NCBI RefSeq assembly: GCF_024713975.1
Contig: NC_091096.1
Coordinates: 4,243,501 to 4,307,500 of the forward strand
Direction: 5' to 3'
Source of the DNA: Paralichthys olivaceus
Taxonomy: Eukaryota > Chordata > Actinopteri > Pleuronectiformes > Paralichthyidae
Length of the DNA: 64,000 bases
The translations under genes and the position numbers were made by a program. Below the pieces are notes generated by a model that made no database searches, was not told the DNA's origin, and was given only the letters and a program-made list of their open reading frames with translations. Of this stretch, positions 8,485 to 64,000 are shown in pieces; the first letter of the stretch is position 1, and every line of letters begins with the position of its first letter.

Positions 8485-8590
8485 ATGCCGATGCATCCAG
8501 TCACCTCCACGTTGATGTACCGGGGGATCTGCACCATCCCTGACATCCTCTACAGCGCGCCAGTGAACCTGCCCGAAGACGAAGTTGAAG
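8485..8590 (+). CDS. cabp7: cabp7 coding exon 1
   Basis: Encodes residues 1-35 plus the first base of codon 36. It is the N-terminal extension before the EF-hands, ending PEDEVE. The donor at 8591 reads GTAAGA. The exon ends in phase 1, and the split codon (G + AG) gives Glu36 with exon 2. ATG 8485 is the first ATG in this frame; the frame stays open upstream to at least 8434 but only through non-ATG codons. Confidence 0.93.
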
Positions 8591-17500: not shown

Positions 17501-17521
17501 TAAAAATAGTTGACCAAGGTT

Positions 17522-17568
<47 letters not shown>

Positions 17569-20500
17569 GGCAAAGCTGTGTTCTTCCTCACACTGATAAG
17601 GTCTTACATAAAGAGTGGGAGTGCTGCAATTACCGATCCAAAGCAGCCCCAGGCAGATGCAGGTCTCACTGAGGCGAGGAGGATCTCCGGCTGTGAAAAC
17701 AGGCCATGGATTACATTCATGGACACTTCCCCACCGCTCAAGCCCCAGTGTTAGCCCACTCTGCTCAAAGTGCACCGTGTGTAATTAGCAAAAACCTCTC
17801 CCTGATGCTAATTTAGCACGAAAAAGGGGTAAAGCTCAGAGCGTGCCTCAGATATCCACATAATACTTCCCACAAAGATTAAGACATCATCAAAGCTGTG
17901 TTCACTTTGTGGCTACGTCTTCTGCAGACTAATAAAAAAGAGAAGGTGGATGTCATGCTCCTCGTCACTGATGTTTTACCTCCGTCACACATCCAAGTGT
18001 TTGTCTGCATGAATCAGCTCCGTTTCCAAGTGATTTCTGCCTTTACCTTCGCAGACTTAAAGCCAGTGCACTTCACTGATATGAGTACGCATGGCGGAGA
18101 GCGATGCAGCGAGAGTACACCGCACCTTACTCTTGTGGGAGTTCAGCGTTAGATGTTTGTCTCTTGCAGCTAGCAATCCTAACTTGGGCTTTTCATCCTC
18201 TGTCGGAGCAAACCGCATGGGAGCGCATTGGTGTCGCATCTTTGAAGGCCAACAAGCACCTCGCTAACATCAAAGCCAATAGCACATTCCAGTATTATAC
18301 CACAAAATATTCACACCTCCCCGGTGGAACTGTGGTTCCTGAGAACGAGCAACAACAACAGCTTTTCAATCTAAAAAAAAAAAAATTACATGTATATTAA
18401 TAAGGTGAAAGAGTAAAATGGAATCAGAATTGAAAGCGGTGTTAGATGGAGTTTAAAGAAGCAGTGTGGTGACGGTACTTTAAATCAACTGGAAGACACT
18501 GTCTTTCAGAAATTACTTAATTAATACATTTTTACATGCAACAGTAAATATGTTTTGAAGGAAAAATAATTGCTACTGGATTAGGTTTTCTTTTAACTTA
18601 ATGAGAAAATTTAATTAATTCACATTAATTGGCAAGTTGCAGATAATGTGTCAGTAAAATGTTCAGATTAGTTTTTCTACCAAAATATTTTAATCTTGGA
18701 GTACAAGACTACAGCCTCATTAAACTTTAACAGGGCGATATGAGAGTGGTCTGCCTTAAAGCAACACCATGAAACTGTTACCCAAGAGCCCCGGTTTCCT
18801 AAACCAACAAACTCTGACTATCAGTCAGTTCCACACTTCACACAGGAGATCGAACCCACTCACCAAAGTTACACAGAGCAAAACGTTGAGGAGAGGAAAT
18901 GAGAGAGGGAACATTCTCCTCCTCCTCTTCAGTGATGGTTTAAAAACAGTATGTGGAGCCCTGAGTGACATTCAGCCGCCTGTGCCTCACCTGTTGCTCT
19001 TAGTCATTAATCTGCATGGAAAGAATCCTCACCCCTAACTCTCACCCCGTCTCCTAAAGCTGTGGTTATGCTTGAACGAATGGTCAGTGTGTCATATACT
19101 CCAAAAAGCCAGAAAGAGGAAGAAGAGGAAACTACAGTTTTGGAGGAAACTTGTTTCCTGTGCATTTCACAAACCAAAGGGTTTTCATGGTTTCCAGCAG
19201 AATGTCATATTATTGCCAAATCTATGAGCAATCTTCCTCCAGGAGCACGAGACATGCCGCACATGGCAAGTTAAAAAAAAGAGGTTTGGAATTTAATGTA
19301 ATTTCTGCCGCATGCCACTGGACACATCGATGAGAATGGTGAGCATAGGCTTCTCCTAACTCACTAACTAACACCACAACTGGTGGTTAAAATGTTGGGT
19401 AGTAAAGATATTTTATTTGTCAATAAAAAGGTTAAAATTGATGTAAGTGGGTTTGAACACCCAACATTTGATGTGATTTGTTATTTGAATATATTTTAGA
19501 ACAATATATAATGTTGTTTTCACTGATTCCAAACTCATGAACCTGGTCACTGGTCTTATCAGTAGAATATTTACAAGGAAGTGTTACAGTGACTGAGCTG
19601 AACTAATCAGGGATACTCAATTAATCATTGAAATCTTTAATCAATGAAAAATGCCAAACATTTTTCGGGATTCAGCCTCTCAAATGTCAGGATTTTAGTT
19701 TATTCTTGTTTCGCTGTTTATCCTCAGGTTGTGAAGTGCGGCTCAGACTAAACAATAGATCGGATGATGTCACCTTGGGCTGCGGGAAACTTGTGATTGC
19801 AATATCTTATTGTTTTCTCTTGTTTCACAACTAGACTGAAAATAATTCTTAGTTGCAGCCCCTGAGATGATAAATCCCAGAAGAATTGAGTAAAGTCAAA
19901 CCATTGTAAGCTAAATACAACATGAGTGTGAAGTCACATGTCACTGATTGTTTTTCTTCTATGATTTGATTTAAATCACATAAAAAGTGATTTTAGTTTT
20001 GACACAGTTATGCCTCTTGTTTCACTTTGTGGTCATACGTGTTAATTAGCTCACACAGACTAGTGAAGGAGGATTATTGTCATCTCTCCAGAGGGTAATT
20101 AAGACAGAGTGCTATCTCTTTGAGAGTTTATCTATCTCAGAAGGAGAAATTAATTCTTGTGGGATGATGAGTCAACCTCTTTTACATGGTCTGTTTTACG
20201 TAGTAATTCGAATAGCTCCGTCTTGACTTCAAGTAGAGCCAAGCAGTTTCAATAATATATTTGTAATGGCTTTATAGATCCCAGCTTTACAGGTTTATAT
20301 CTCACTTGATAAGCAAATTATTATATTTCAGGACTGAGGCATTTTTATTCTATAAATGGTTCATGACAGAGTATAAAATCCTTCCACAACAAATTGTGCT
20401 CGTATTTCTATTTCTACATCAAACACACGGTGCACGTTGTTTTGTTCACCTTGACCTTTGATCAACAAATAAAAGCTTTCAGGGGGAGACGGAGTATTCG

Positions 20501-23500
20501 CCGTAACTGTTTGGCACCTTATTTCGGGTTGTGTTTGCCTCCTGCGACGTGGCAACGTGTTCAAGTATCTCCTGGAAAGCCCCCCCCCCCACAATCCTAA
20601 AGTAAACAGATGGAGCAGGGGACCTCAGGTGGAGACAGAGGTATTGTTATTCTATAAACAATGAGATCAGGGAAAGAGAACAGCACGTAGCTCTGGGCGC
20701 TCAGCGATTCCAACCATACCTGCAGTCAGACACTTTGCAGGGAAAAGCCACGTGAAAAGTAGCTGCTGCTATTGCCGCTCAGCCTGGTTCGGGGAATTGC
20801 ACGGCCAGATGTAATCCGCTGTAATACATGATTGTCTCTCACACGTTTGTACAGCTGTCTTAGTGAGGACCCTCATTGGCATAATGCATTCCCCAGCCCC
20901 TTACCCTAACCCTCCAAACTAAGTGCCTGACCCTTCACCTAAACCTAATTCTAACCCTAAAACCAAGTCTTGACCCTCAAACAGTCCATTAAAGAGGGGG
21001 GGGGGGGGGGGGGGGGTCACAAAGTGAGGACCGGCCTAAATGTCCTCACTATGACCAAAATGTCCTCACTCCGTAGGTTAAAGGCTAAAACTGGTCCTCA
21101 CAAAGATGGCTGTACAAACACACACACACTTTCTTGCCATCGTTCATATTTTCCACGTTTTGTTTTCCAACTCAAATATTTGTCACATATTGTCACGCTG
21201 AGGATTTTGGCCCGAGGCTCGGGACGTTCGTCGTTGTTCCGACACGTCTGTAAATAGACAGCAATTCCCCTTCACAAAACTCTTTGTTCAGTATTACACT
21301 TGAGTACATTACCAACAGCTAATAGGGTATTAGGGGAAGACATTTAAAAATTCTTGTGTGAAATGTTGTCTTTTTTTAATTTTCAGTCGAGAGACATGTT
21401 TTGAATTGTTTTGCATCAGTTGCCACATTTTATTTTGTTTTGTTAGTTTTCATTATTCATTGAAAACTCATATAATCTTATCTTTCCACTTCTCTGATGT
21501 TTTCCTCTTCATCAGCTTCCTGCAAATGTCTAAATGTGGTTTTAAAAAGCAACATTAACGAGATTACAGACATGATTTTATGAGAATTTACACTATGCAT
21601 TATCCTCTTCTTAAGATTCTTCTCCCGCTCTGCTCGTTTGTGTGCTAATCAGGCGTGTGACACGAGGATGTGACGAGTCCAGAATCGTAGGTGACTGGTT
21701 GGTGGATGCCCCTGCATGTAAATGAAGGGATTCGGTCACTTGCAAAGAGTAAACAAGCAGAGAATGAGGGGGGATATGCAGCATTGTGGAGGAATTACCT
21801 GCTAGAACATTTCCTTCATAATAAAGTGTGCTTCTAATAGTGTGGTTTAGGACTGTGACATCTTTTTCATGGGGTTTTATGATGAGCGTTGGGTTCATAT
21901 AGAACAGGTGTTTTGTCTATGTGAGAATGGTGGCTCTCTAGTTTGTCTTCTGTTGTTGATGCTGTTTGTGTCTTTGTTGCCACAGCAATAGATCATCATC
22001 TTGATTTGGAGCCTGGGTTCATGAAAAAAATTCAATACCGGCTCAGACAGAATTTAATAGACTTTGAGTAGATCGTTAAACCGAAAAAAAAAAGTGCAAT
22101 AGAACCAATAGAAGTTTTAGGATTTTTAAAAGAAAGATGTCGGGCTTTTCCCAGCTATAGGATCAGTCAAAACCAAAAAAAGCACAACACACTTCACAAA
22201 AAATAAAGTGCCTTAAATTCATACACAACAACACAATATATTGCATGTCGTAAAAGGAAAAGGAAAAGAAAATCAACCAGGCAGACCTGAGACTTTCTGT
22301 GAATTAGGTTGTATAACGAGTTTTCTGAATCGTGCAACTTAGACGGCATCAAAGCAATGGTTTCACAAACTAATTACCAAATACCAACAATTACCGACAG
22401 AGCAACAATCAATACATTTTTGGTTTGATGTGAGCCACTGAGCCTTGACATAAACACTCAGAACTCTAAGGTTCACTAAATATTTAACAAATCCACACAA
22501 TGACCACGTTGTCACAGATGTTTTCTGCTGTAGAGTCAGTTTTCGTCTGTAGTTGACTCATTAAACTTGTGCATATGGGTTCAGCTTTCACTGTCAATCA
22601 TTTGTCTTCGAAAATATTGGGCTGATGGAATCTAGGAAACAGCCAGAAAGCTACACTCTCCCGTCGTATGCACCCGGAACATATCCTCCGCAGGTTATTT
22701 TTGGCATTAAAGCTGTTCAGATGTTGGCAGCCGAGTGAAAAAGACTTCATAGGTTTGATTCATCCCCATAAAAGTTGAAATATAAGGAAGCAGAGAGCTC
22801 TGCCCTTCTTTATTTCAGTATTTATTTGACAGCCGCAGTTTCTTTGCAGAATATTGTCATGCACATGTTTTTTTAGCTCATAAAAACAATACATCACCAC
22901 AGGTTAAACTGCCCATCAGTACAGTATAAGGTAATTATTGCCTCCACCAAGGAGGATATGTGTGTATTTATTATGTAAATTGTATTTGCTATGTATGTTT
23001 TTGCCACTTTCTGGTGGTAGTTTGCAGGATTATGTAAAAACTGAACTGATTTCTATTCTGGTGGAAGGATGTTGCATTGGTCAGGGAAGAATCCATTAGA
23101 TTTTTCACTTTAATATTGTAAGATTGCTTTGCTCATTCAGGGAACTGATATTTATTGGTGTGTGGAACTTTGTGCAGCTTTACTGAGTTTAAATCGACTG
23201 TCATGCCGAGGCTGTCAGTTGGCGCTCTGGAAAGTTTGTGAATGATTTTGTCAGATCGTAATTTGTAACGGATTGTTTTTACGGTATCTCAATATGTCTT
23301 CCACCACTGCACAATGAATTAGTATTTTTCAGGAAGTAATAAAACAGTTTAGACTTATCTTATTGAACTAATGCTGGACGTAGAGTCCTGTGAGCATTTT
23401 TGTTTAAATCAAAATAAAAGACAAACAAAGTCAAGTTTTCAGGTTTGACTCAAGGTGCAACTCTGCAGTCCAGTAAAAGACTTTAAGTTTTATCTATCAC

Positions 23501-26500
23501 AATGAAATTTAAATTTCAGGTGTAGCCAGCGAGTATTGTATATAAAAACGTTGACATTCGTCCTGATCTCAGCTCTTTTTATTTATTTTACATCGTTTTT
23601 TCTCATTGAACTGGTGGATTTTGTTCTCCTAAGCTGCCAACCCACATATAACTATGACTCAAGCATTGATGCAGCATAGCAAATGTGTCTTTGGTGCGTG
23701 GACCATTTCCTGCTCTCATATCCCGCTCTGCTGAAAGACTTGAGCTTATGTGTGTTTGTGTGTGTGTGTGTCTCCTCTGCAGAGATCCGCGAGGCCTTCA
23801 AAGTGTTCGACCGTGATGGAAACGGATTCATCTCAAAGCAGGAGCTGGGGATGGCCATGCGCTCCCTCGGCTACATGCCAAACGAGGTGGAGCTTGAAGT
23901 CATCATCCAGAGACTGGACATGGATGGTGAGGCACATTCACTGATTGTTATCATGTTAAATCACAAAGTATAGAAACTTAACTAAAAAGCCAGAGTGTAG
24001 TAAGTAGTAAAACCAGTTACGATAAACACCAACTGCTCCTGTTTTCTACAGGCGACGGCCAGGTGGACTTTGAGGAGTTTGTCACTCTCCTGGGCCCGAA
24101 GCTGACGGCAGCTGGGTTGCCGGATAAGTTCAACGGCACCGACTTTGACTCCGTCTTTTGGAAGGTGCTCATTATTCAGTCACTCATTTCCTGCCAATTA
24201 GAAAGAAGACAGACAGCAGAGTCGCAAGCTGTAGCAAAACCTCCGACAGAGACATGTCGACTCTGCGACTTAAAAGGAAAAGCAGATTTAATTATTACAT
24301 TCACTGGGTCTTTAAAGGGAGAGGTTCGGATTCCCTTAAGAAATGTATCCTTCATCAAGACTCGGACCTCTACGTCTTTGTGTGTGGCTCCACCATCAGT
24401 ATTTATGTAGAACAGATATGGATTTATTTGCAGACACCTTATTAGATAATCAACAACTCGCTTAGGGGCTGGGATGGAAATGAAGGGGACGGAGCTCATG
24501 TCAAAGCCGCCTTTGTTGCAGTTATGTGATAACAGAGCTGGAGACGCTGTCAGAAAACAGGCTCCAAATTGATTGTTAAAGCGAGGGTGGATTTATGGGC
24601 ATTCTCGGTGCCGTCAGTCAGTGCAGGAGAATAATAAAAAAACATTTGCAGCCCAAGCCTCCTGCTGGGAGAGTCAAGAAACCCGAGGGATTGTTGAAGA
24701 AGCTGCATCGCTTCACATAACATTATATAACCGAGTTGTAGTATCAAGCATGTGCTGCTGGATTGATCACTGCAAGCCTCCGGTCACTCTGCTGAACTGC
24801 AGCTCAGGCTCTCAGTAACAGTCTTTACAAGCAGGCACTGATCCAGGATTATGTTTTTAGTTTTTGGTCTTAGTCATTCAGATTTATTTTATTTGACTCA
24901 GATTTTACATAATACCAGTGTTGGAATACAACCAGGGACATTTATTCCAAAAAATGTCATTTTTTGTTACTGCATACTGTGTATTTTAGGCACTGCTACT
25001 ACTACTACTACTAAAAGGTATTCACACTATGGTCAAATTACATTCGGTATAATAGTATGACAGACAGTAGCCTTAATACATTTACCTTTGATACTTTCCT
25101 TGCACTTTTAAAAATCAACAAAATGGGTGAGAAAAAAAATTAGCAATATCTAAATAAAGTTTTCCACCTTGCTGCAGTTTGAACTCGGTTTTCCAATAGT
25201 TAAACGACACCTTGTGTTCTTGTGCCCACCAGCCTTGCATCCATGTTAATGTTCAATTACATGTATGTGTGTGCGTATCTCCAGTGTGACATGCAGAAGC
25301 TGACGGTAGAGGAGCTGAAGAGGCTTCTGTACGACACCTTCTGTGATCACCTCTCCATGAAAGACATCGAGAACATCATCATGACCGAGGAGAACCACAT
25401 AGAGAACCCTGAGGAGTGCCAGGTGGATATAGACAGTAAGGAAGATCCTTCTTTAATAACAGGCCTCTGCTGTTTATGTTGTGGTTTGAAAGAGCGGGGG
25501 CAATTTATGGCACACAGCAAAGTTGTTTTGGATTACATTTGGCTCACACTGTCATCCGGCCCACATAGCAGGTGGAATCATGGTACTTGGGTACTCTGCT
25601 CCTGTTTCGGAAATCCAGATCTACAGTATTGCCATCGCGATACCACATCAACCAAAGCTGCTAAATGGTGCATGATTTTTTGGGCCACATTCACCATTTA
25701 CCACACGGGCCACTTGTTTGCCATGTTTGCCACTAACGCCCACCTATGTTCTGGGATATTTGGGCCACATTTGCTTTTTTTACAAGTGGGCCACTTTCGG
25801 CTCACATCCATTTTGTGCAGGAGACCAATTATCGTATGAGTTGTGTTATTATTGCAATATTTACACAACTTTTTACCAACAAATCAATTGATCAAAATGA
25901 TCTGCATGGCTCTGATCTTGGTGAAATTACCGAAGCAGAAAGCCTCCATATATGATATTATAAATGACTATGCTATTGTGAAAGCACCATCCACCCACAT
26001 AGATGCTACATGGAGAACCATATTCTCTGGGGCTCGTTTGAAAGTCATTGAAATGCAGGAAGTCCCTAACAGAAGCAGAGTCTTATTGACAGAAAAGTGT
26101 CGGAACAATGAAAAAGTATTTATACCTCTTCGTTAGAAAAGAGCTGTAATTTTCCTTCAATGGTAAATATCCCGAGGGGTGCAATTGAGAGTTCTTTGCT
26201 TTTTACTTGGTTCATATGGTCATTTTTTCAAGTGGAAATTAAACGACTGCTGGAGCCTTAACAAACCTAATCTGGGATTTTCAATAAGAAACTCTTTTGT
26301 GAAGAGTTTTTACTCTGAGAACAGCAATTACCTCTGGAGGAAAAATAGATAAATCAAAAAGCAAAATTAATTTAAAGCAGTAAGAAATCAATAATGCATT
26401 TTGCTTCGGTCCAGCTGCCTTGGCTCTTTCCTCAGATGATACTGAAGGTACGCTGCACCTTTTCTTGGGGGGCTGGTGTTTTCATGAGCATCCTTTAATA

Positions 26501-26920
26501 TGTCAGGTGCCAGTCCATTTTATGTGTGGTTCCAAACTCTAATCAGCATTTTAATCTAGATGCAGTTACGCAGCATACAGGTGTGAAAGCAAAAATTTCT
26601 TGGCTGAGTTCATCCCCTATAATTGTGTTCATGTAATTCTAAGGTTTTGTGATGAGCTCCTTCATTTGGAAATTACTTTCAGATGTCTTTCAAGCGTTAA
26701 ATAACTACTGATTCAATGAACCTTCAGGTGTTATTTTCCTTATTTCTTTCCGTCCCATCACATTTTTTTTTTTACATTTCTCTGTGCAGGTTCCAGCCCG
26801 ACGCAGCAAGTGAAGCAAACTTGTGTGCGCAAGAGCCTGATATGCGCCTTTGCCATCGCTTTCATCATCAGCGTCATGCTCATCGCAGCCAATCAGGTGC
26901 TGCGGAGCGGCATGAAATAG
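8485..26920 (+). CDS. cabp7: Calcium-binding protein 7 (calneuron-2), full coding span in five exons
   Basis: Coding exons are 8485-8590, 23783-23926, 24052-24164, 25285-25435 and 26790-26920. They join in phase to 645 nt, or 214 residues, against about 215 in human CABP7. Seen: EF-hand loops D45-E56 ([12 protein letters not shown]) and D81-E92 ([12 protein letters not shown]) have full Ca2+ ligands. The C-terminal half lacks canonical EF loops. Residues about 188-205 form one hydrophobic segment followed by NQVLRSGMK at the end, i.e. a tail anchor. Known of the family: calneurons are Golgi/TGN tail-anchored Ca2+ sensors that inhibit PI 4-kinase IIIbeta at low Ca2+. The N-terminus ([14 protein letters not shown]) and the EF-hand context fit CABP7 better than its paralogue CALN1. 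The first in-frame ATG is used. Teleosts often have a and b copies; which one this is cannot be told here. Confidence 0.96.
8595..8663. repeat. (GAT)n microsatellite next to the cabp7 exon 1 donor
   Basis: GAT/GAG trinucleotide run beginning four bases after the 5' splice site at 8591. Confidence 0.9.
10964..11254. mobile_element. Second, inverted and degraded copy of the TTAA-flanked element
   Basis: The right end TAAATCCTACACACTTAACC plus TTTAA is the inverted counterpart of the left end at 55434, and the internal GCAGCCATGTTGCATCACC and CAATATGCAACC match the same family. The left end is decayed (ATGTGTAAGATTTAG). It sits in cabp7 intron 1. Confidence 0.65.
12840..12912. repeat. Short fragment of the same repeat family
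   Basis: CCACCAAGTTTCATGGTAAT followed by CCATCCACTGG and ATGGAGGTAATAAATG, the flank normally seen at the end of the family at 22935. Confidence 0.4.
16215..16335. repeat. Interspersed repeat fragment with a CTCF-like motif
   Basis: CCCATTCACTCACATGTAGG followed by GTAGCCACCAGGGGGCAATC matches, from memory, a widespread teleost repeat. The CCACCAGGGGGC core at 16295-16306 fits the CTCF consensus. Confidence 0.45.
17525..17563. repeat. (CA)n microsatellite
   Basis: CA run of 39 bases in cabp7 intron 1. Confidence 0.95.
20846..21118. mobile_element. Short repeat with 25-bp terminal inverted repeats and an internal poly-G run
   Basis: The left end TTTGTACAGCTGTCTTAGTG and the right end, reverse-complemented, TTTGTACAGCCATCTTTGTG differ at few positions. 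Inside are CCCTAACCCT-like stretches and a run of 21 G at 20996-21016. It resembles a very common fish repeat (TGAGGACC...AACCCTAA). It carries no coding sequence. Confidence 0.7.
22935..23200. repeat. Old interspersed repeat fragment in cabp7 intron 1
   Basis: Starts TTATTGCCTCCACCAAGGAG and contains GGGAAGAATCCATTAGATTT and TTCAGGGAACTGATATTTAT, text typical of a high-copy fish repeat. It is the same family as 41290-41545 but more diverged. Confidence 0.5.
23783..23926 (+). CDS. cabp7: cabp7 coding exon 2 (EF-hand 1, start of EF-hand 2)
   Basis: The acceptor is a pyrimidine-rich tract ending CTCTGCAG at 23782 and the donor is GTGAGG at 23927. It encodes residues 36-83 plus one base: EF-hand 1 with its loop at 45-56, the linker [16 protein letters not shown], and the first residues of loop 2. 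A TG-rich stretch lies just before the acceptor. Confidence 0.96.
24052..24164 (+). CDS. cabp7: cabp7 coding exon 3 (rest of EF-hand 2 and linker)
   Basis: Acceptor TTTTCTACAG at 24051, donor GTGCTC at 24165. It finishes loop 2 ([10 protein letters not shown]) and runs through the linker VTLLGPK to DSVFWK at residue 121. It ends in phase 0. Confidence 0.95.
25285..25435 (+). CDS. cabp7: cabp7 coding exon 4 (degenerate C-terminal EF region)
   Basis: Acceptor GTATCTCCAG at 25284, donor GTAAGG at 25436. It encodes residues 122-171, beginning [11 protein letters not shown] and including [16 protein letters not shown], both hallmark calneuron stretches. No 12-residue loop with the full Ca2+ ligand pattern is present, as is normal for EF-3/EF-4 in this family. 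Confidence 0.95.
25548..25822. repeat. Diverged repeats of a GGGCCACAT motif in cabp7 intron 4
   Basis: GGGCCAC recurs at about 25682, 25708, 25770 and 25789, with a related GGCCCACAT near 25559, in an uneven array of about 15-60 base spacing. It starts 110 bases after exon 4 and keeps the exon 4 frame open for 135 codons without coding meaning. Confidence 0.5.
26790..26920 (+). CDS. cabp7: cabp7 coding exon 5 (tail anchor and stop)
   Basis: The acceptor is a T-rich tract ending TCTGTGCAG at 26789. Split codon 172 (A + GT) is Ser. It encodes residues 172-214: a short polar linker, [16 protein letters not shown], then the rest of the membrane anchor and the end RSGMK, with TAG at 26918-26920. 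This tail is nearly invariant in calneurons. Confidence 0.96.
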
Positions 26921-41094: not shown

Positions 41095-41870
41095 CCTCTG
41101 TATAAAACCTGTGAGGAGCTAATGAGTGACGAGGTGCAGCCGGACAGAACCAGGGGATTAACTGAGGAGGAAGAAGTTCCTGCACAGTTGGCACAAAGAT
41201 CCAACATTGAACTTGTGTCTTCTTTATTGACTAAAGGTTCAGTTTTTGACTCGTTTGTTTGTTTAAAAAAACAACTTGGAGGGTGGCGTGACCCAAGGAA
41301 ACACAATTGGACTCATCACATTGTGGTGTGGATCTTTTTTTTTTTTTCCACTTTCTTTAACGTTGCTAGATGGGATGTTTTTTCATCATCATTATTATTT
41401 GTGATCTCTCAAAGAATAATTCATGCATCTTGAAATAAATCCAGCACATTTAGAGGACTGGGACTATGAGTGTGTGCCATTCAGTGCAGATGCAAATAAA
41501 AATCCAGATCTAATGTGGTTTCATAAGGGGACTTGCTAAAGTGCCAGTCTATAGTTTTAACATGGGAGCTTGGTTTGAGCCAGTGTATTAAGATCTGCTG
41601 GTAAATCAGTAATAATGAGGCCACACACACACACATGCACACACACATGCACACACACATGCACACACACATGCACACACACATGCACACACACATGCAC
41701 ACACACATGCACACACACATGCACACACACATGCACACACACATGCACACAGACAACAAGCAAGAAGCAGGAGTGAGGTCCAGCCTCTATATAAAACCTG
41801 TGAGGAGCTAATGAGTGACGAGGTGCAGCAGGACACACAGGTGAACAGAATCAGGTGATTAATGGAGGAG
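41095..41870. repeat. Direct duplication flanking a 12-bp minisatellite
   Basis: 41095-41170 and 41784-41870 share an exact 40-base core (beginning TATAAAACCTGTGAGGAGCT) and similar ends. Between them lie a repeat fragment (41290-41545) and a minisatellite at 41622-41750 with ten ATGC-containing units of ACACACACATGC. Confidence 0.8.
41290..41545. repeat. Interspersed repeat fragment
   Basis: TTTCCACTTTCTTTAACGTT, AAAGAATAATTCATGCATCT and GGACTGGGACTATGAGTGTG are in the order seen in a high-copy teleost repeat family. It is less decayed than the copy at 22935. No ORF. Confidence 0.5.
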
Positions 41871-44158: not shown

Positions 44159-44479
44159 TTAGTCATACATGTCACGAGTTGGTGACACAGGCAGCACACT
44201 TCGATGGTACGTCAACCCGTGGACGGGGCTCATCCCCGCGTGGCGGAGGCTCTCCACTTTGCCAAACTGCCGCAGATGGAAGAGGAGGGTGAGCTTTCGG
44301 GTCATGGTCCTGAGCGCCAGGAAGGAGGCCAGGATCTGGGCGAGGAGGAAGAGGAGGTACAGGGAGTGGACGGCTCTCTCCAGGGGCAGGATGATAATTC
44401 CTTCATCGGTCAGGAAGAACAGCAGCACTGGCAGCTGGAACATGAAAGACAGGAGCCAGAAGGCGGCCAACTCTGGCAC
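44159..44479 (-). CDS. tmem17: tmem17 coding exon 4 (membrane segments 3-4, C-tail, stop)
   Basis: Acceptor CCTGTCATCAG before 44479. Encodes residues 117-222 in phase 0 and ends with TAA at 44161-44159. It contains VPELAAFWLLSF, the ILPLERAVH loop and the fourth hydrophobic segment. The cytoplasmic tail extends beyond the human end with no motif I recognise. Confidence 0.93.
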   Translation of the reverse strand: MPELAAFWLLSFMFQLPVLLFFLTDEGIIILPLERAVHSLYLLFLLAQILASFLALRTMTRKLTLLFHLRQFGKVESLRHAGMSPVHGLTYHRSVLPVSPTRDMYD

Positions 44480-46142
44480 CTGATGACAGGCGAGGAGGGA
44501 GGGAGAGAATTCGAGTTGGTGGACGGAGGCGATGCAGAGATAAAGCAGTCGAGTGTTTCTCTAGTTGTATCCACACACACACAGAGAAACTCAACAGAAT
44601 AAGGTGGTTGTAGCCTGGAGCTGTTTGTTTGCACACACAGGAGGAATATTCAAGCAGCCACTTCCTCCACTGTGTCCTCCAGGATTCCACAGAAGAGCTC
44701 TGTGTTGTGCGTCAGGGAGGATGTCGGCGGTTTCAATTACCTTTTCTTCAAGGTTGCCGATGTAGCCCAGATAAAGTCGCACCACTTCGATGACTGTGAG
44801 GAGGATCATGCCGGTTATGAGCAGAGCCTGGTAATATCCCGGCAGATGATAGAACTGCAAATGAAGCGCGGCTGTCATGTCAATATGTTGAATTAATGAA
44901 AAACAGCATACTTTAAAAAAAAACACTTTTAAAAGTATAATTCTTTAGCAAATCTCAAATGAGTTTTAAAGTTTTACATGACAAACCTTTATGTATATAT
45001 TCATGGGGCTTTTACAGGATGGTATTTTTTTCTGTTTATTCATTTATATATACAAATATCCACTGTATGCAAATTTCCATTGTGTTCTTTTTTCCCTTTC
45101 CTTTTTCATTTTCTATTTTTATGGTCTTATGGTTGTTCCCAGAGCACGACTGACTGATGCATTTGTTTTGTTTTGTTCTTTTGTGAAGCATTTTGTAACA
45201 TTGTCAAGAAAAGTGTAATACAAACAAAGTTAATATTATTATATTTGTTGTTGATAATATTATATTTGTTGTTGATAATATTATATTTGTTGTAATACAT
45301 TTATTATTAACTCGTCTAGTGTTTGTTTCGACCACTAGATGGCGCCAAAGTCACAAGTTTCCCAATTTGACAAATATTGACTTTAAGAGGATTTAACTTC
45401 TATTGAATGAGTTTACATCTTCATCTCCTCATTCTCTTATAGTTGACGATTTTCAACCGACCTTCACTTCCAGCATGAACACAGCCGAGAACCACCAGCA
45501 AGGAAAATAAAACATATTGAAGTAGAGCAGCATCTGCAGGGGGAGGTGAGAGACCAGCTCGTTGACCACTGCAACACAACAAACACAATAAACATCACAT
45601 CCATGATCTATGAAGCAACAACAGCGTTTATAAAAAAAAGCTGCACGGACAACAATTGTACACAATTTAGATTTCAGGGATACGCCCAGTTCCTGTGTTG
45701 GGGAGACCATAAGAATATAAAGCACATTTTGCTTCGACTGTTGATATTGCACAGACAGATGAATATAGAACAGTGAATATTAGACTTAAAGTGTTCTGTG
45801 CACTACTGGATGAAGATAGAGTTAAGTTAAGATAAGTTTACATGTAGTATCCACAAAGATCACAAAATATTTACCTCAGATATGAGATCAGAATTTGTTT
45901 CAGAAACTCATAATCACATATTTTCAAATAATTCATCATAGTATACTCTAAATAGTTGTTTTTTTTTAGAGTACATTTATATCTCAGTTGTATTTTTGTG
46001 GAACACGTGACTAACCCAATGCGTCCTCCTGCTCCCTGGTGAGGTCGCTGTCTCCCGTCCTGTTGTTGGTGAACACTGAGCTGCCCATGTAGGCCAGACC
46101 CATCTGCAGGTTCTCGGGAACAGGTGAGTAAAACACAGGCAT
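44159..46142 (-). CDS. tmem17: Transmembrane protein 17, full coding span in four exons
   Basis: Exons in transcript order are 46142-46016, 45568-45462, 44854-44741 and 44479-44159. They join in phase to 669 nt, or 222 residues (human TMEM17 is about 198). Seen: NNRTG in the N-terminal tail, then four hydrophobic segments at about 55-73, 85-106, 119-140 and 152-173, with family stretches LYFNMFYFPCWW, IEVVRLYLGYIGNLEEK and VPELAAFWLLSF. Known: TMEM17 is a tetraspan protein of the ciliary transition-zone MKS/tectonic complex that helps gate membrane proteins into cilia. The C-terminal tail is longer than in human. The start could instead be Met14 (46103-46101). The gene lies directly downstream of selenoe on the same strand. 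Teleosts may have two copies; which one this is, is unresolved. Confidence 0.93.
44741..44854 (-). CDS. tmem17: tmem17 coding exon 3 (second membrane segment)
   Basis: Acceptor TTCATTTGCAG, donor GTAATT. It encodes 38 residues from FYHLPGYY to GYIGNLEEK. The stretch EVVRLYLGYIGNLEEK is almost the same as human TMEM17 and is the strongest identifier of the gene. Confidence 0.94.
45232..45292. repeat. 21-bp tandem repeat in tmem17 intron 2
   Basis: Nearly three copies of ATATTATATTTGTTGTTGAT plus A. A+T-rich, no function visible. Confidence 0.85.
45462..45568 (-). CDS. tmem17: tmem17 coding exon 2 (first membrane segment)
   Basis: Acceptor TGTGTTGCAG before 45568. Split codon 43 is Val. The exon carries ELVSHLPLQM and the first transmembrane segment with FPCWWFSAVFML. 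The donor GTCGGT is weak, but the phase (0) and homology force this boundary. Confidence 0.9.
46016..46142 (-). CDS. tmem17: tmem17 coding exon 1
   Basis: Encodes residues 1-42 plus one base, a soluble N-terminal tail with the conserved FTNNRTG motif. The donor reads GTTAGT immediately after base 46016. The start ATG at 46142-46140 is the first ATG found in this frame. A second in-frame ATG sits after a CAG that could be mistaken for an acceptor, so the N-terminus is the least certain part of the model. Confidence 0.78.
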
Positions 46143-46531: not shown

Positions 46532-46596
46532 TTTATTTATTTATGAAGAAAACAGACCCATGAATTCACTGACACATTCAAACATTTTCTTTTATT
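46532..46596 (-). terminator. selenoe: Candidate selenoe poly(A) signals
   Basis: Minus-strand AATAAA-type hexamers lie near 46595 (CAATAAAAG) and as an overlapping pair at about 46541-46532 (AATAAATAAA), 170-240 nt after the stop and past the SECIS. They leave only about 0.4 kb before the tmem17 start codon. Confidence 0.5.
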
Positions 46597-46670
46597 GTTT
46601 AAATTCCGCTCACTAACAGAACGACACATCCATGTCTAACACCCTGCACCCAGCACCCGGCCAGCAAGTC

Positions 46671-46723
46671 CTCAGTGTGGAGCCTGGCTCCTCGGTTTTT
46701 GGCCTTTGGGCCCCACACATCAT
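46671..46723 (-). promoter_or_regulatory. selenoe: SECIS element (selenocysteine insertion) in the selenoe 3' UTR
   Basis: Read on the minus strand, the 5' quartet ATGA starts at 46723. The next 11 bases (GTGTGGGGCCC) pair with AGGCTCCACAC, six bases as an uninterrupted GTGTGG/CCACAC helix. An unpaired AAA at 46707-46705 is followed by a short GGC...GCC stem, and the matching TGAG is at 46674-46671. Outer GGCC/GGCC stretches could form helix I. This is the layout of a form-2 eukaryotic SECIS, which recruits SBP2 and the selenocysteine elongation factor. Confidence 0.85.
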
Positions 46724-46768
46724 TAAAGCGGCCTGGGTGCAGCGGCAGGGTTTGTCCACAAGATGTCG

Positions 46769-46912
46769 TCAAAGCTCGTCCCTCGGGGCGCTCAGGGGGA
46801 AATGCTGGAACTCCTCTGGCACCTCTTCCCCTTTCTGGGCCCTCTTGTAGAAACCCAGTGAGTCCAACAGGCTGCTGATCTCATCTGCCTTCATTTTCTT
46901 CACGGGAACAGT
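46769..46912 (-). CDS. selenoe: selenoe coding exon 4 (C-terminal helix, RDEL, UGA stop)
   Basis: Acceptor CGACACGTCAG before 46912. It encodes residues 84-130, including KMKADEISSLLDSLGFYKRA, which matches the C-terminal helix of SelM/Fep15, and ends SAPRDEL. The stop is UGA at 46771-46769. Confidence 0.92.
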   Translation of the reverse strand, partial: TVPVKKMKADEISSLLDSLGFYKRAQKGEEVPEEFQHFPLSAPRDEL

Positions 46913-48123
46913 CTGACGTGTCGGGGAAACACACACGGGATCACACACCCACATGCACGAGCACACACACACACACACACATGCGTATGGACGTGAGGCC
47001 GAAGAGTCTGTAATGTTGTGTGAAGTAGAAGGATGCAGAGGAGACTGTATTTTACAGACGAATGGTTCCTCGTGATTCTGTTCAGGTTTCGTCTTTAAAC
47101 CATTAATTTCACAATTTTTATTAAAACTTCCTTCTGCTCAGTAATTTAGTCTCTGCAATGATTCTTCATTTGAATTCAAATTACAGTCTCAAAGGGCCAC
47201 CGCCCACATAATGAAGCAATAAACGAACACAACAAACACGAGACCTTGAAACAGACGCTAAAGAGAAAACTACCACCTGGTCTTTAAAAGGGAAACTAGA
47301 ACGTAAAAGTCGAGAAGAAAGAAAACAACAAAGTGGGAGAACAGTTCACTTTTCAATCACAGCGCGGGCTCTTTGTGCGTTTAGAAGAAGCTGAAGAAAT
47401 TCATTAACATTGGTTTCACTCGAGAGTTTTATTGTCCCTTGTCGGCCTAAACACAGAATCAGGGGCTTTCCAACACGGATAAAAATAAAAGTCTGTGGGA
47501 AACATTAACAATTTGAAATTTAAGGGCTCACATATATATATATCAACATTTATGCCAAGTATCATGTCTCTGTATAAAATATTGCTCAGCTGTCAGAAAC
47601 TGATTTATGAACCTTCTCAGTCTTCTACTTTCTTTCCATTTGTTTCTGTGTGTCTCATTCTTTCAAACACACTCTGTCTCTGCGACTCGGTATCTGACAG
47701 AGGATCTGATATCAGATGCAGCAGCTTTAAAACTTCCCCACATGAATCCGTCTCGACATTCTGCTGCTCCTTAGAAAAAATACTGCACCACAAGGCGGAT
47801 AAGCAAAAGATCCCTGAACTCACATCTCACCTTTACAACCTCGTCCTTCTCGTCGTAGAATATCAGACGGGGATTCTTCTCCTCCGATGAGTCATATTCC
47901 AAGTTGTGGCTACACAGGAAAAGAAGGAATCAAGGGAAACAACAGGTTCGGGCGGCGTTCTGTGACGGGTGAAGCACATCCAATCGGCTTTTGCTATTTT
48001 TAGACTCAACATGATTTTCAGGAACAAGAGTTTTGGAAAGCTCCCAGAGCTGGCTGGCACCGGACCGGGCTATTTGCTGGAACCATTGTTTTGTCTGTGA
48101 GAGAGAGGTCATGAGAGGACCCG

Positions 48124-48158
<35 letters not shown>

Positions 48159-48638
48159 GGAAAAGGTCACGTCTCAACAAGAGGCCGCAGGAGAATGAAA
48201 AGAGCAACAAGGATACTACAGAGCCCATCGCTCCAGGAGGAAGTGATGGAGCTCGGGCATTTTCTTTATGCCTCATCCAACCAGGCTGGGAGCCTGCAAG
48301 GACGACAGCAGACGGTTGTTAAAGCAGCATGACAAATTACATTGTGCACGCTTTGTTCCACTCAAAGCTGCCAGCTATCAAAACTCTGGAGACTGACATG
48401 ACAGAACCTGTCAGCCCCGATGTCAAATATTCCTCATATTTTCACATGAATATTTGATTCATAACTTTTCAAGGTAAAGCATTTTATGGACTAACCTTTA
48501 AACTTCATCTCTGAGTGGTTCGTTATTAGAGGTCTGTATACTCACCAGCAGTTTACCTCTGGCTACAACCAGCTCTTCTGGTTCACTCTCTGACGCCCGA
48601 ACACCGAGGGTCAGCGTGAGCACCAACAAGGCCCACAT
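46769..48638 (-). CDS. selenoe: Fish 15 kDa selenoprotein (Fep15 / selenoprotein E), full coding span in four exons
   Basis: Exons in transcript order are 48638-48546, 48293-48217, 47909-47831 and 46912-46769. They join to 393 nt, or 130 residues, if the in-frame UGA at 48275-48273 is read as selenocysteine (Sec38). Seen: signal peptide MWALLVLTLTLGVRA; Sec in the context LVGUGIKKMPEL; YHNLEYD and SLLDSLGFYKRA, as in the Sep15/SelM thioredoxin-like family; C-terminal RDEL, an ER-retrieval signal. There is no cysteine at all. Known: Fep15 is a fish-only member of the Sep15 family, ER-targeted, with a lone Sec rather than a CxU pair; its exact redox substrate is unknown. A SECIS candidate lies 45 nt after the UGA stop. 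An annotation that treats UGA only as stop would break or miss this gene. Confidence 0.9.
47831..47909 (-). CDS. selenoe: selenoe coding exon 3
   Basis: Acceptor TTTTCCTGTGTAG, donor GTGAGA. It encodes the end of Tyr57 and residues 58-83 (HNLEYDSSEEKNPRLIFYDE onward to EVVK), the central beta-strand region of the Sep15/SelM fold. It ends in phase 0. Confidence 0.9.
48125..48155. repeat. (TG)n microsatellite in selenoe intron 2
   Basis: About 15 units, 62 bases downstream (in transcript direction) of the Sec-codon exon. Confidence 0.95.
48217..48293 (-). CDS. selenoe: selenoe coding exon 2, carrying the UGA selenocysteine codon
   Basis: Acceptor GTCGTCCTTGCAG before 48293, donor GTATCC. It encodes APSLVG, Sec38 (UGA at 48275-48273), then GIKKMPELHHFLLERWAL. 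It ends in phase 2 with TA, and exon 3 supplies C to make Tyr57, giving the family motif YHNL. Because of the in-frame UGA a normal ORF scan does not see this exon. Confidence 0.87.
48546..48638 (-). CDS. selenoe: selenoe coding exon 1 (signal peptide)
   Basis: Encodes residues 1-31: a hydrophobic signal peptide (MWALLVLTLTLGVRA, likely cleaved near SESEP) and the start of the mature protein (EELVVARGKLL). The donor GTGAGT is near-perfect. A nearby GTAAAC 12 bases upstream could also act as a donor but would break the frame into exon 2. Confidence 0.85.
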
Positions 48639-59209: not shown

Positions 59210-60444
59210 TTATTTCACTACCTGTGGTGGCATGATGGCAGTCTTTTGCTGTGGTGTTTTACTTTCAGGTGTTTCCAAAGTACCCTCCTTGCCTTTCTTC
59301 CTGGGTGGCTTTTTTATTGGAGTTTTCTTTGGTGTAGGATCCAGCGCTGGGTCCCCTGACCTTGAGCCGTTCAAGTCCTGCTTCTCCGGGCTCTTGGCTT
59401 CCGGGGTCCCGAGGTCGGTAGTGACGGGCGCCACCATCTTCTGTAGGCTGCTTGAGGTGGGCAACAGGGGCTTGGTGGAGCCCTGCTGGCACAATCCACT
59501 GGAGGGGTTCCTCTTGGCTTTCTGTGGGGGTGTGGGCTTCTCTCGGTTTCCCTTGGGTGTGGAGAGACCGTTGGTTTTCGTCAGGCCTGTCCCCTCATTC
59601 CTGTTGATGCTTTGGGTTTTCTCCTTGAGCTGAGCAGCCAGCAGTGTGGCAGCCTCAGAGTTCATATGTGGATGGATTAACTTAGGGCTCTTGGGTGGCT
59701 CCTTGGGGGTCTCCTTTGGACTGTCAGAGCTCTTCTTCTCAGATGAAGAGCTATGGAAGTTACTAATCTTCTTCAGGGCATTCTGAACAACACCATTAAT
59801 GTGCTCCATGTGACTGGGACTGCTGTGCTCGTCCCCAGACTTCTTACCTCGCAGAGGTTTGTGTTTACTGGGTGAACCATTGGCGTCTGCCTCCTTCCCC
59901 TCCTGTTTCTTCTGCTGCTCACGGTTTCTCTCCTTCATTTTCTGCCGCTCCTCACTCTTGGCTGAGCCATCACTTGAGCTCCTCTTTTTCTCCTTTGGCA
60001 CTGCCAGGACCTTCATCCCCCCTTGCCCCTGCTGCTCTGGCTGGGGAGTCCCGGTGGCATTACCGTGTATCCACGATATCTTGGGCTTAGTCGATGGATC
60101 TGGAGGGCGTGGTTTAGGCTTGCCAGGTGAAGGCGGTGGTTTTCCATTGCGCTTGGTGTCTGGTGTAGGAGCGCCTTCCCCATCCTTGCCACTACCATCA
60201 TCCTCTTTGGACTTGGAGAGGCGGGCTATGCGGGCATAGAGAGCCGCAGTTGTGGACTCAGAACCACTGGTGGACCCCTCACTGTCAGACGACTTGATCA
60301 GGGGCTGCTCACTGCCTTCTGCTTTGGTGATGCTGGTGTCTTTCAGGGATGTGTACTCCCCTGCATCCTCCTCATTAGGAACAGCTTCGGGCCTTTCTGC
60401 TGCTGGGCTGGGGCTGCACTTCTCTTTGCTTTCATTCACCGACT
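59210..60444 (-). CDS. scarf2: scarf2 last coding exon
   Basis: Acceptor TTGGATTCACAG before 60444; the split codon gives Glu. It has 1,235 nt ending with TAA at 59212-59210 and encodes about 411 residues of low-complexity tail with islands of conservation (ALYARIARL, KPKISWIHG, LLAAQLKEKT, KKTPIKKPPRKK). It runs beyond the KKPPRKK block with residues ending PPQVVK. Confidence 0.94.
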
Positions 60445-61554
60445 CTGTGAATCCAAGGCAGATCACAAATTATATATTAAATTATGTACAAATATCTCAT
60501 TAGAAGAAGTGACACATAAATCTGAGGTCCAGTTCATGAGCAATTCAACAAACCGTGGCTTTAATCAATACACTGCGGTTTGGTCTAGTATGGCCATTAG
60601 TTTACTGTGACTAATGTTTGCTCATGTGAGCTGGCTACTGAGTACTTGCTGTTAAACGACTCAATTGTTCTCTCAGTGTGGTGCCATTACCTCATGTTCA
60701 ATGTTACACTATAATTACGTACTTGACAATGACTATTGTATATTGACAAAATGATAAAATTTGTGCCTTATCATTTTTCATGCAAGGCGTCATTATTTCC
60801 TTCCCACCAGAGAAGCATTCACACATGTTATTAAAGATTGATATCTCTTCATTTGTTAATTTGTATACACATACTTGAGAGCTGGAATGGTTCCAGTTCC
60901 TATCTTTGCAAATCTAATTCAAAGCCCTTTCAACATGTTTACAGTAATGAGTCTGTGCCTTCTGCGTTCTGCTCGCAATCAATTGTTTTCAAAGCCCTTG
61001 AACCATTAATGAGGAAAATGAGAATTCAATCACAGCACTAAACATACATCCATCAAACACACTTTAGAAAATACCCGCAGAAAAAACCTTGACCTCCAGA
61101 ATAGAAACTGATGGAATGGGTGTTTCCCGTCAAACTTCAAGAGGTTTGTCACTGTTTGGATTTGCGCCATATGCTGACTTGACTATTCCATTTCCTGTTT
61201 ATACTCCCCTTGTTCCCTAAGCAAAACCTGGACCTCGATGGCACAAGATAAAGAGTCATGCTATCTCGGTAATGACATTAACAGCAATGGGGATGTCACA
61301 GCATGGCACAGTGTGAATGCCCCTTCATGCAAAAGGCCAATTATCCTTTTATGTGCATCATTCCAGATAATGAAACTGTTTATTTAACAGTGACTCACCT
61401 TCATGGGGCACACAGTAAACCGGCCCCTCATCTCCACTCTCAAAGGAAGAGAAGGACTCCTGGGATGACCAGGAAGAGGGGGAGGGCTGCTCGGCCACTG
61501 AGGGGGGCTCGATGAAGCTGCAGTTGAAGGTGTTCTCTGGGTCATGGTGGGCTA
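59210..61554 (-). CDS. scarf2: Scavenger receptor class F member 2 (SREC-II), C-terminal two coding exons, partial
   Basis: Exons 61554-61399 and 60444-59210 join in phase and encode about 463 residues of cytoplasmic tail. The 5' part lies beyond position 64000. Seen: AHHDPENTFNCSFIEPPS and EGPVYCVPHEE match the juxtamembrane region of human SCARF2. The tail then carries ALYARIARL, PKISWIHG, EAATLLAAQLKEKT, PPQKAKR and KKTPIKKPPRKK, each with a SCARF2 counterpart. The region is rich in Ser, Pro and Lys and probably disordered. Known: SCARF2 is a single-pass receptor with EGF-like repeats that binds SCARF1; human mutations cause Van den Ende-Gupta syndrome. No EGF-like cysteine pattern was found upstream inside the window. 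Confidence 0.93.
61399..61554 (-). CDS. scarf2: scarf2 penultimate coding exon
   Basis: Acceptor CTGTTCTCAG before 61554, donor GTGAGT. 156 nt; enters and leaves in phase 1. It encodes the juxtamembrane acidic/serine segment with PSPSSWSSQESFSSFESGDE and the conserved GPVYCVPHE. Confidence 0.93.
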
Positions 61555-64000
61555 CTGAGAACAGAAAACAAACGCAGAAGCCAAAAGGTCAGCCAGAGGG
61601 TATTGTACCGAGTTACAAGAACAACAGTCTGTTCTCACTCACTCTCACAACTGCAGCAGAGTTGTAGAAATGTTGGTTTAAGTGAGTCTGCGGAAAAATT
61701 GGGTTTTTATTGGTTTTGCATGTGAGTTAACAGACACAGCAACATTATTGGGTTTTTTTGAGAGCAAAAGAAGCAAACGCCTTCACAGAAGCTGTTGAGT
61801 ATTTTTATATTTTGAAGCCAAAAGCTAAAGTAATTCAGACTTTTTTAAAACAGCATCCTGACCATTATATGAAACCCAAATTCTCAACTAACCCAAGAAA
61901 AACAGTCTGGATCACAAGACCTCAGAATCAATGCTAACAGGGGACAAAGAGATCTGAAGGTTTGTCCTTTTACAAATTGCCACATAAAGCTGCTACAGTA
62001 TAAATAGTAGTTTACTAAATCATTATTTACCTGTTTTTACTCCTGTCTGTTTTGTTGGACGGATGACGTAAAAACAACTGAATGGATTTCCACGAAATCT
62101 GGACTCTAGTTTTTTCTGAGAGTGAGATAATAATAAGGCTAATAAGGACATGCTCATCTCATCTCTTATTGTGGTCTTCTCCAGTATTTAAATACTGAGC
62201 AAAATGGGCCGCAATTGGATTCTTTCATCATATTCCACAGAATCCTCTCCTCCTACGATATGTAGGTCAAGTCATGTTTCTCTCTCACTGTCTCCCTCTT
62301 GCTCTCTTCCTTCCTCCCCTTCAGACACAGCAGGATTCTGCTGACCCTTCAGTCTCGGGACAGCTGCGGTTTGTGACGGATACTTGCAGTTTATCTTCCC
62401 ATCTGGCACGCACACTTTTGGCCTAAATCGCATTGGGCGTCAACTCGAATTGACCGACCACATCAGACGCTCCTATATGCCCGATGTCACATGGCTCTGT
62501 CCGTTTGTTTAGACCTCAGATAAACCCTCCATGTGAGGAATCCCCTGACTGTACCTGTATCCCCGCCAGGAACAAATTCAAGCTCCTCAGCTGTTGTTGT
62601 TTGACTGTTACTGAAAAGACGGCCTACTTTAAGAAAAGGTCTGCAGGGGTTTTGCAGACCTGGTGACTTGTAGAGCCACTGATAATACTCTGTGATATGA
62701 GTATAAATGAAGCCTATGTCACTGAGATTTCACACAGCTAGATATGCATTCTGCAGTGCTACAACACAATAAAGTCTTGATCTTAACAACATTCAAAAAC
62801 ATACAACATGAGCTCATGATCAGTTTAGAGGCTCTTCTCACCGTTAAGCGTAAACTGAGCACATCTGATTTATTTTTTCATCATAAATCTGTGGGATGTT
62901 TTCTCTCTCGATTCCTGCGGCCATTTTTCTGCCTCACACCATATGACAGCAAACAGATTTAGTCATGGTCAAATCATGAGTGGGTTATAAATGGTGTGTG
63001 TGTGTGTTTGTGTGTTTCAAGGACCCTGCTTTGTTGTTGATCCTGATGAGTTTTATCTAGTTTTCCAGATTGCAGCTGTTACAACCTCAGATAGAGTATC
63101 TGTTGTCTTGCTGATTTGCTGAGAACTAAGAAATTAGGTTAATCTTTATTGCTGATAAAACTGTTGTTCCTAAGAACTATTTTCTTACAAGTAATCTAAA
63201 CCTCTGAACTACATGTTTACGTTTGAGAATCTCATGTCTTGTCGGGTGGATAATGTCAACACAGGTGCAACATGTCTATGAAAAGCATACGCAGATGTGT
63301 AAAAGACGATCAAATTAACAAGGGTTTTGCATATGTGTGGAGAGTATTTCTATCCAAGGGCACACATCTATGTGATAATTTAAAGATATCCTGTTCCTGC
63401 TCTCTCTACATTGGTAGTATACAAATAGCCACAACATGCATTTTTCATATAGCTACTATTAACTGTGAGTAACGACCAGCTTTATGTGACTGTAGTAGAT
63501 CAATAACAATCTCATAATTCCAGATATCTGTCTGTATGTTGAACATCTTATCTGCTTCAAAACTTAGGGCTTAAGGAAGTGCAATGTCAAATGTGGATTT
63601 TAGGCATGCTATATGTTCAATATGAATAAACAGTGGACCAGTCATCAGTAGAATCTGTGGCTTGGATTCATCAGTGTAAGAGACGTTGATAACGACAACA
63701 GCTGATGCTCCGGTTCAGGTTCTGCGTACTGAGTCGAGCGTCACAGAACACAGAATAAACAGGTGAATGGCTCTTTGTGCGGAAGCGGTGGACAGTCTTC
63801 AGGGTTCTGTGGACTGAGCCCTGCAGCCGGTCTTCACTTACTGTGGGTCAATTACTGCAGGTAAACTTTTAAAGTTTCAGACAAAAAAGCAACAACCAGC
63901 ATAACCACAGGTCAAGTGGAGAACCCATTCCAACAAGCCTATGGACACTAACTTTCACTTAGTCTCTACCTTTGTGGCTGCTGCTGCAAGCTGCTCTTAG
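61555..64000 (-). other. scarf2: Intron of scarf2, running off the window
   Basis: The penultimate scarf2 exon begins at 61554 in phase 1, so a further exon must lie upstream. I looked for the expected basic juxtamembrane segment and EGF-like cysteines up to 64000 on the minus strand and found neither. Confidence 0.6.

Follow-up and report, generated by a model that had tools for sequence, protein, structure and literature searches.

Within the stretch of DNA analysed here, 64,000 nucleotides of Paralichthys olivaceus contig NC_091096.1 (the window), a short minus-strand exon carries an in-frame UGA. The question is whether this exon belongs to a working gene and, if so, whether its UGA ends translation or encodes selenocysteine (Sec). 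We conclude, with a probability of about 96%, that the locus is a complete, ordinary SELENOE (Fep15) gene of fish, whose UGA would be read as Sec and whose product would be retained in the endoplasmic reticulum (ER) by RDEL. We reach this reading because of a match to the Pfam family PF08806, an alignment with selenoprotein M (SelM), a test of the exon itself, a SECIS-like match and near-identity to selenoe primers from tuna. Papers are cited by PMC number, each for the part of its text drawn on here.

Gene structure

The four minus-strand exons of Table 1 (93 + 77 + 79 + 144 nt) splice in phase into 393 nt of coding sequence, which translates into 130 residues. The translation reproduced the exon coordinates, junctions and phases proposed in a preliminary description of this DNA. 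As that description had held, there is a single in-frame UGA, at codon 38 of 130, YHNL is rebuilt across the junction of exons 2 and 3, where the Tyr codon is split (phase 2), and the protein ends in RDEL, followed by a TGA stop. No further stop or frameshift interrupts the 393 nt, and GT and AG are present at all junctions. The N-terminus is hydrophobic as judged by hydropathy alone (Kyte-Doolittle mean up to 2.49 over 11 residues), and none of the 130 residues is a Cys. Were the UGA a true stop, the product would have 37 residues; skipping of exon 2 would shift the frame, and translation would then end at codon six of exon 3.

Table 1. Features of the selenoe locus, in window coordinates
Feature	Coordinates	Strand	Details
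selenoe exon 1 (coding part)	48546..48638	-	Start codon and hydrophobic, signal-peptide-like N-terminus; donor GTGAGT in top 0.12% of window GTs
selenoe exon 2, Sec exon, 77 nt	48217..48293	-	APSLVGUGIKKMPELHHFLLERWAL, plus TA of the split Tyr codon
In-frame UGA, proposed selenocysteine residue 38	48273..48275	-	Aligned with U of SelM CXXU (2a2p)
selenoe intron 2, 307 nt, probable U12-type	47910..48216	-	Donor GTATCCTT, branch-site-like TCCCTTGAT; class judged from these motifs
selenoe exon 3	47831..47909	-	Acceptor in top 0.19% of AGs; donor GTGAGA in top 0.13% of GTs
selenoe exon 4, coding part	46769..46912	-	Ends in RDEL and TGA; acceptor in top 7.5% of AGs; tuna forward primer 19/20
Candidate SECIS element	46660..46732	-	Rfam SECIS_1 (RF00031), 23.0 bits, under the gathering score of 35; fold z = -2.31
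AATAAA poly(A)-signal-like hexamer	46591..46596	-	Downstream of SECIS candidate

Exon 2 and its splice sites

Candidate exons were taken as AG...GT segments of 15-300 nt within the 636 nt between exons 1 and 3, provided that the flanking introns measured about 40 nt or more and that the frame was open with TGA read as a residue. Each was scored against the SelM stretch of PDB entry 2a2p, a distant relative. The gap holds 50 such candidates, 31 of them free of TGA, and the proposed exon 2 is the best SelM match among all 50, at 48.0 bits; with TA alone in its place, as a frame filler, the score is 37.7 bits. None of 300 dinucleotide-shuffled introns, which together offered 16,893 candidates, reached 48.0 bits (best 43.1). 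Exon 2 at 48293-48217 is more than chance.

Splice sites were scored with an approximate U2 matrix, and ranks are relative to all GTs or AGs of the window. The exon 2 acceptor scores +5.9 and falls in the top 1.0% of AGs. Its donor, GTATCC, scores -5.9, and 60% of GTs are equal or better, whereas the donors of exons 1 and 3 are both in the top 0.13%. Of the good acceptor and usable donor originally credited to this exon, then, the acceptor stands; the donor is poor as a U2 site and is instead an exact match to the U12 type.

Other boundaries for exon 2 were set aside. Starts at 48350 and 48374 come close in SelM score, at 46.9 and 46.7 bits, and have worse acceptors, which score -7.8 and -2.0, respectively. 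With the in-phase donor at 48220 (GTAGTA), YHNL would be left without its Tyr and the match falls to 39.7 bits; this donor scores -6.7, compared with -5.9 for the one at the proposed end.

Family and position of the proposed selenocysteine

With C placed at the UGA, the protein matches Pfam PF08806 (Sep15_SelM) at 2.3e-13 and 50.4 bits, over a cut-off of 26. The score is still 46.5 bits with X at that position and 31.7 bits from exons 3 and 4 alone, so the family call is independent of the UGA. Exon 2 nevertheless contributes similarity of its own, since the whole protein scores above exons 3 and 4 alone. Neither exon 2 by itself nor the exon-skipped product has a Pfam match. The full protein also has weak Pfam matches under their cut-offs, to PG_binding_2 (0.0012) and Inhibitor_I29 (0.12).

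The sole match in the PDB up to an E-value of 10 is selenoprotein M, 2a2p (1.3e-11). In this alignment the UGA faces the last letter of the 2a2p motif CGGC, and YHNL faces YHNL. CGGC stands for the CXXU of native SelM, with its last letter being the U. On sequence grounds, the UGA of exon 2 is most likely read as selenocysteine.

The 3' untranslated region

At gathering thresholds, Rfam has no match anywhere in the 64 kb window. Up to an E-value of 10, the only SECIS-family match listed on either strand is the SECIS_1 candidate of Table 1, which starts 36 nt past the selenoe stop codon and lies upstream of the AATAAA hexamer. Its E-value of 6.1 refers to the whole window and all 4227 families, which comes to about 0.0014 for a single family (6.1 divided by the number of families) and, by our own arithmetic, to about 2e-5 for a 1.1 kb stretch, one that was chosen as the 3' UTR. 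The candidate has the layout of an AUGA (46723-46720), a 10-pair helix, an A-rich apical region and a 3' UGA (46674-46672). Its fold is better than that of most shuffled sequences, 4 of 200 being as good. In the mRNA, 324 nt would separate the Sec UGA from this element, more than the minimum distance of 51-111 nt (PMC3316567).

A home-made SECIS grammar finds two sites in the window, both on the minus strand (46722 and 53882). As 20 block shuffles gave 1.65 sites on average, the grammar motif alone is not significant. The site at 53882 is absent from the Rfam matches listed up to an E-value of 10. The preliminary description had named no SECIS element; a candidate in the right place is present.

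A second line of comparison comes from published qPCR primers that give a product of 177 from bluefin tuna selenoe (XM_042422277; PMC9854485). The forward primer agrees with exon 4 in 19 of 20 bases (46846-46827), the reverse primer with the 3' arm of the SECIS candidate in 17 of 20 (46687-46668); they span 179 here and 177 in tuna. The best primer match in 10 shuffled windows was 15 of 20, and the next best listed places in the window itself reached 14 and 15. By this comparison of 40 primer bases, the locus is taken as orthologous to an annotated fish selenoe gene, and the match suggests conservation of the 3' UTR near the SECIS arm in this fish and bluefin tuna. Together with the SELENOE family, it also points to a ray-finned fish. 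It also ties the locus to a gene that has been annotated in tuna and whose expression there responds to Se in the diet: bluefin tuna larvae expressed selenoe more strongly when fed Se-enriched rotifers (PMC9854485).

The PF08806 match, the alignment with the SelM active site, the SECIS-like element and the near-identity to the tuna primers together bear out the assignment to the selenoe/Fep15 family first made from the letters, along with its Sec position and architecture. We propose a model in which the pre-mRNA would be spliced to four coding exons and the hairpin in the short 3' UTR would recruit the Sec-insertion machinery (SBP2, eEFSec and Sec-tRNA) at the exon 2 UGA. The product would be a small, thioredoxin-like protein with a Sep15/SelM domain, the fold being suggested by the SelM match. 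It would enter the ER by its signal peptide and be kept there by RDEL, as this ending and the hydrophobic N-terminus suggest. Because a Sec would be present and there is no Cys anywhere in the protein, we propose a selenol that works with an outside thiol partner, to which the oxidised Sec would pass.

Alternative readings of the locus

Exon 2 might begin at 48263, after ATAAAG, giving an isoform that leaves out the UGA and a protein without Sec. This start is open without TGA and is the best of the 31 such candidates at 42.2 bits, a score reached by 2 of 300 shuffled introns; but its acceptor is very poor, with no pyrimidine tract and a score of -8.6, and 70% of AGs do as well; the acceptor at 48293 scores +5.9. 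Such an exon would also drop the active-site residue and leave the SECIS-like element without use, and we consider it very improbable. It is most improbable, too, that the locus is a pseudogene, or that the UGA is a true nonsense codon that ends translation and leaves the remainder as a relic. This reading has in its favour the interruption of the frame by the UGA and the weakness of the exon 2 donor by U2 standards. A relic of this kind is nevertheless hard to square with 393 nt free of any other stop or frameshift, GT and AG everywhere, RDEL, a SECIS-like 3' UTR and a UGA that falls on the redox position of SelM.

The remaining alternative keeps the Sec and changes the family, placing this gene in SELENOM or SELENOF. 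The PF08806 domain and YHNL are indeed common to SelM and this protein. Yet where SELENOM has CXXU this protein has LVGU, without a Cys, and the CXU of SELENOF has no counterpart in a protein that lacks Cys altogether; the protein moreover ends in RDEL and matches the tuna selenoe primers. We find this assignment barely credible, and return to the reading of the locus as SELENOE.

Intron 2

U12-type introns have the donor consensus RTATCCTT and the branch consensus TTCCTTRAY. The exon 2 donor, GTATCCTT, is an exact U12-type match. Before exon 3 stands TCCCTTGAT, which agrees with the branch consensus at 8 of 9 positions and places the branch A 20 nt from the exon. The same donor 8-mer occurs at 3 of 7506 GTs in the window (0.04%), and 62 of 8249 AGs (0.75%), or 12 of the 692 AGs that have a pyrimidine tract (1.7%), are preceded within the tested range by a branch motif that has one mismatch or none. 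Since both motifs fall on intron ends that had been fixed beforehand by the protein match, we think it quite probable from the sequence that splicing of intron 2 falls to the minor (U12-type) spliceosome.

Comparison with published U12-type introns gives a mixed picture. Examples of U12-type donors are GTATCCTTTT and GTATCCTTCA (PMC7367187, Table 1). These introns are biased against phase 0, with which the phase 2 of intron 2 agrees; in phases 1 and 2 they disfavour A as the -1 base, and intron 2 has A (PMC7367187). The optimum distance from branch A to exon is 11-13 nt, against 20 nt here (PMC3584512, section 4). A missing polypyrimidine tract is characteristic of U12 introns, with the 5' splice site and branch site as the defining features (PMC3584512); intron 2 departs from this in having a clear tract, TTCCTTCTTTTCCTGTGTAG, next to the strong exon 3 acceptor.

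A second reading has to be weighed, one that bears on the intron class only: intron 2 may be of the ordinary U2 type and have a poor donor, or may be spliced by either spliceosome, the GTATCCTT being there by chance. The strong pyrimidine tract, with an acceptor in the top 0.19% of AGs, speaks for this, as do the incomplete branch motif and its distance from the exon, 20 nt against the published optimum of 11-13 nt (PMC3584512). The RTATCCTT count in the window is at chance level (3 observed, 3.4 expected), and both other GTATCCTT sites also have an acceptor-like dinucleotide and a branch motif with at most one mismatch within 3 kb, so donor-branch pairs of this kind do arise by chance. Against it stand the rarity of each motif among the GTs and AGs of the window, their joint position on protein-fixed intron ends, and a donor that lies under the median GT by the U2 matrix. 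We hold a U2-type or dual intron to be unlikely, though far from negligible. Intron 2 may also be a hybrid, or on its way to the U2 type.

Taking the U12-type donor and the U2-like 3' end together, we think it likely that the Sec exon of SELENOE is doubly non-canonical, in that its UGA is recoded and the intron after it, which splits the Tyr codon of YHNL, is of the U12 type with a U2-like 3' end. If this is true, expression of SELENOE would require the slow U12 spliceosome as well as the Sec machinery, and the class of intron found in SELENOE, SELENOF and SELENOM would be a marker of the way in which Fep15 arose. The likely U12-type intron suggests that the activity of the minor spliceosome exerts control over SELENOE, and it can serve as an evolutionary marker for the Sep15/SelM/Fep15 family. 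Such an intron after the Sec exon would also be a second reason why gene finders could miss that exon. A literature search with selenoprotein names and U12-type or minor introns gave no title linking both among the matches listed, which does not exclude that one exists.

Relation to known selenoproteins and annotation

Fep15, in the account of Novoselov et al. from 2006, reportedly has a single Sec without a Cys partner. The protein described here is like SELENOE/Fep15 in its Sep15/SelM domain, its single proposed Sec at the redox position without Cys, its hydrophobic leader and its SECIS candidate. It ends in RDEL, which the preliminary description had given as a feature of Fep15. Among the features tested we found no difference from SELENOE/Fep15; a U12-type intron after the Sec exon is not mentioned in the cited portions of the papers. 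The reference lists of PMC3316567 and PMC12822975 place the description of the family in 2006. Bony fishes and the elephant shark are reported to have Fep15, and frog to have a Cys form of it (PMC3316567), and further papers give its occurrence, in the portions cited, without sequence or intron data (PMC2375036, PMC3473315, PMC5981252, PMC2397514).

With SELENOM (mouse SelM, 2a2p) the protein has PF08806, YHNL and the redox position in common. The motif is CGGU in SelM, printed CGGC in 2a2p, and its Cys position aligns with a Leu here. SELENOF (Sep15) has CXU, in contrast to the absence of Cys here. SELENOF also has a Cys-rich domain that binds UGGT. SELENOM has been described as thioredoxin-like with a CXXU motif (PMC10668967), SELENOF as an ER protein with a CXU redox motif (PMC9304195), and SELENOF and SELENOE as one homologous family (PMC12822975). 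Our gene is a new member, in this fish, of the known SELENOE family. A look for relatives in viral contigs gave 18 pattern matches, none of which was confirmed.

It had been suggested that a standard gene-prediction pass would truncate or skip the Sec exon, and this agrees with the figure for Ensembl, where less than 1% of genes for SELENOE, SELENOL and SELENOJ are well annotated (PMC12822975). The dedicated pipeline of NCBI RefSeq, by comparison, is right in 77% of selenoprotein cases (PMC12822975). The description of the exon as hidden therefore holds for generic annotation; it does not extend to the family itself, which has been known since 2006. The selenoe gene may well already be annotated in RefSeq. 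As it belongs to a known family of fish selenoproteins, the present work is useful mainly in supplying a correct model for a gene of the kind that generic annotation usually gets wrong.

Neighboring sequence

Downstream of selenoe, also on the minus strand, lies a Transmemb_17 gene at about 44159-46140, with PF09799 in three open reading frames, two of them above the cut-off. It is presumably TMEM17, a ciliary transition-zone protein. An EF-hand gene occupies the plus strand at about 8480-26900, its span and other exons being judged by eye only. EF-hand families were matched in the open reading frame at 23680-23973, and none in those at 23982-24410 or 25204-25839. We take this gene to be CABP7-like.

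On the minus strand at 59210-61588 are a 419-residue open frame rich in Pro, Lys and Ser (59210-60469) and a 76-residue frame (61358-61588). The open frames of this region have no Pfam match up to 0.01; to our eye they resemble the tail of SCARF2. Apart from the exon 2 donor, exact GTATCCTT 8-mers occur on the plus strand at 24345, inside the EF-hand gene region, and at 37799. A 12-bp repeat, CACACACACATG, forms an array of 10.8 copies with a 99% match at 41626-41755.
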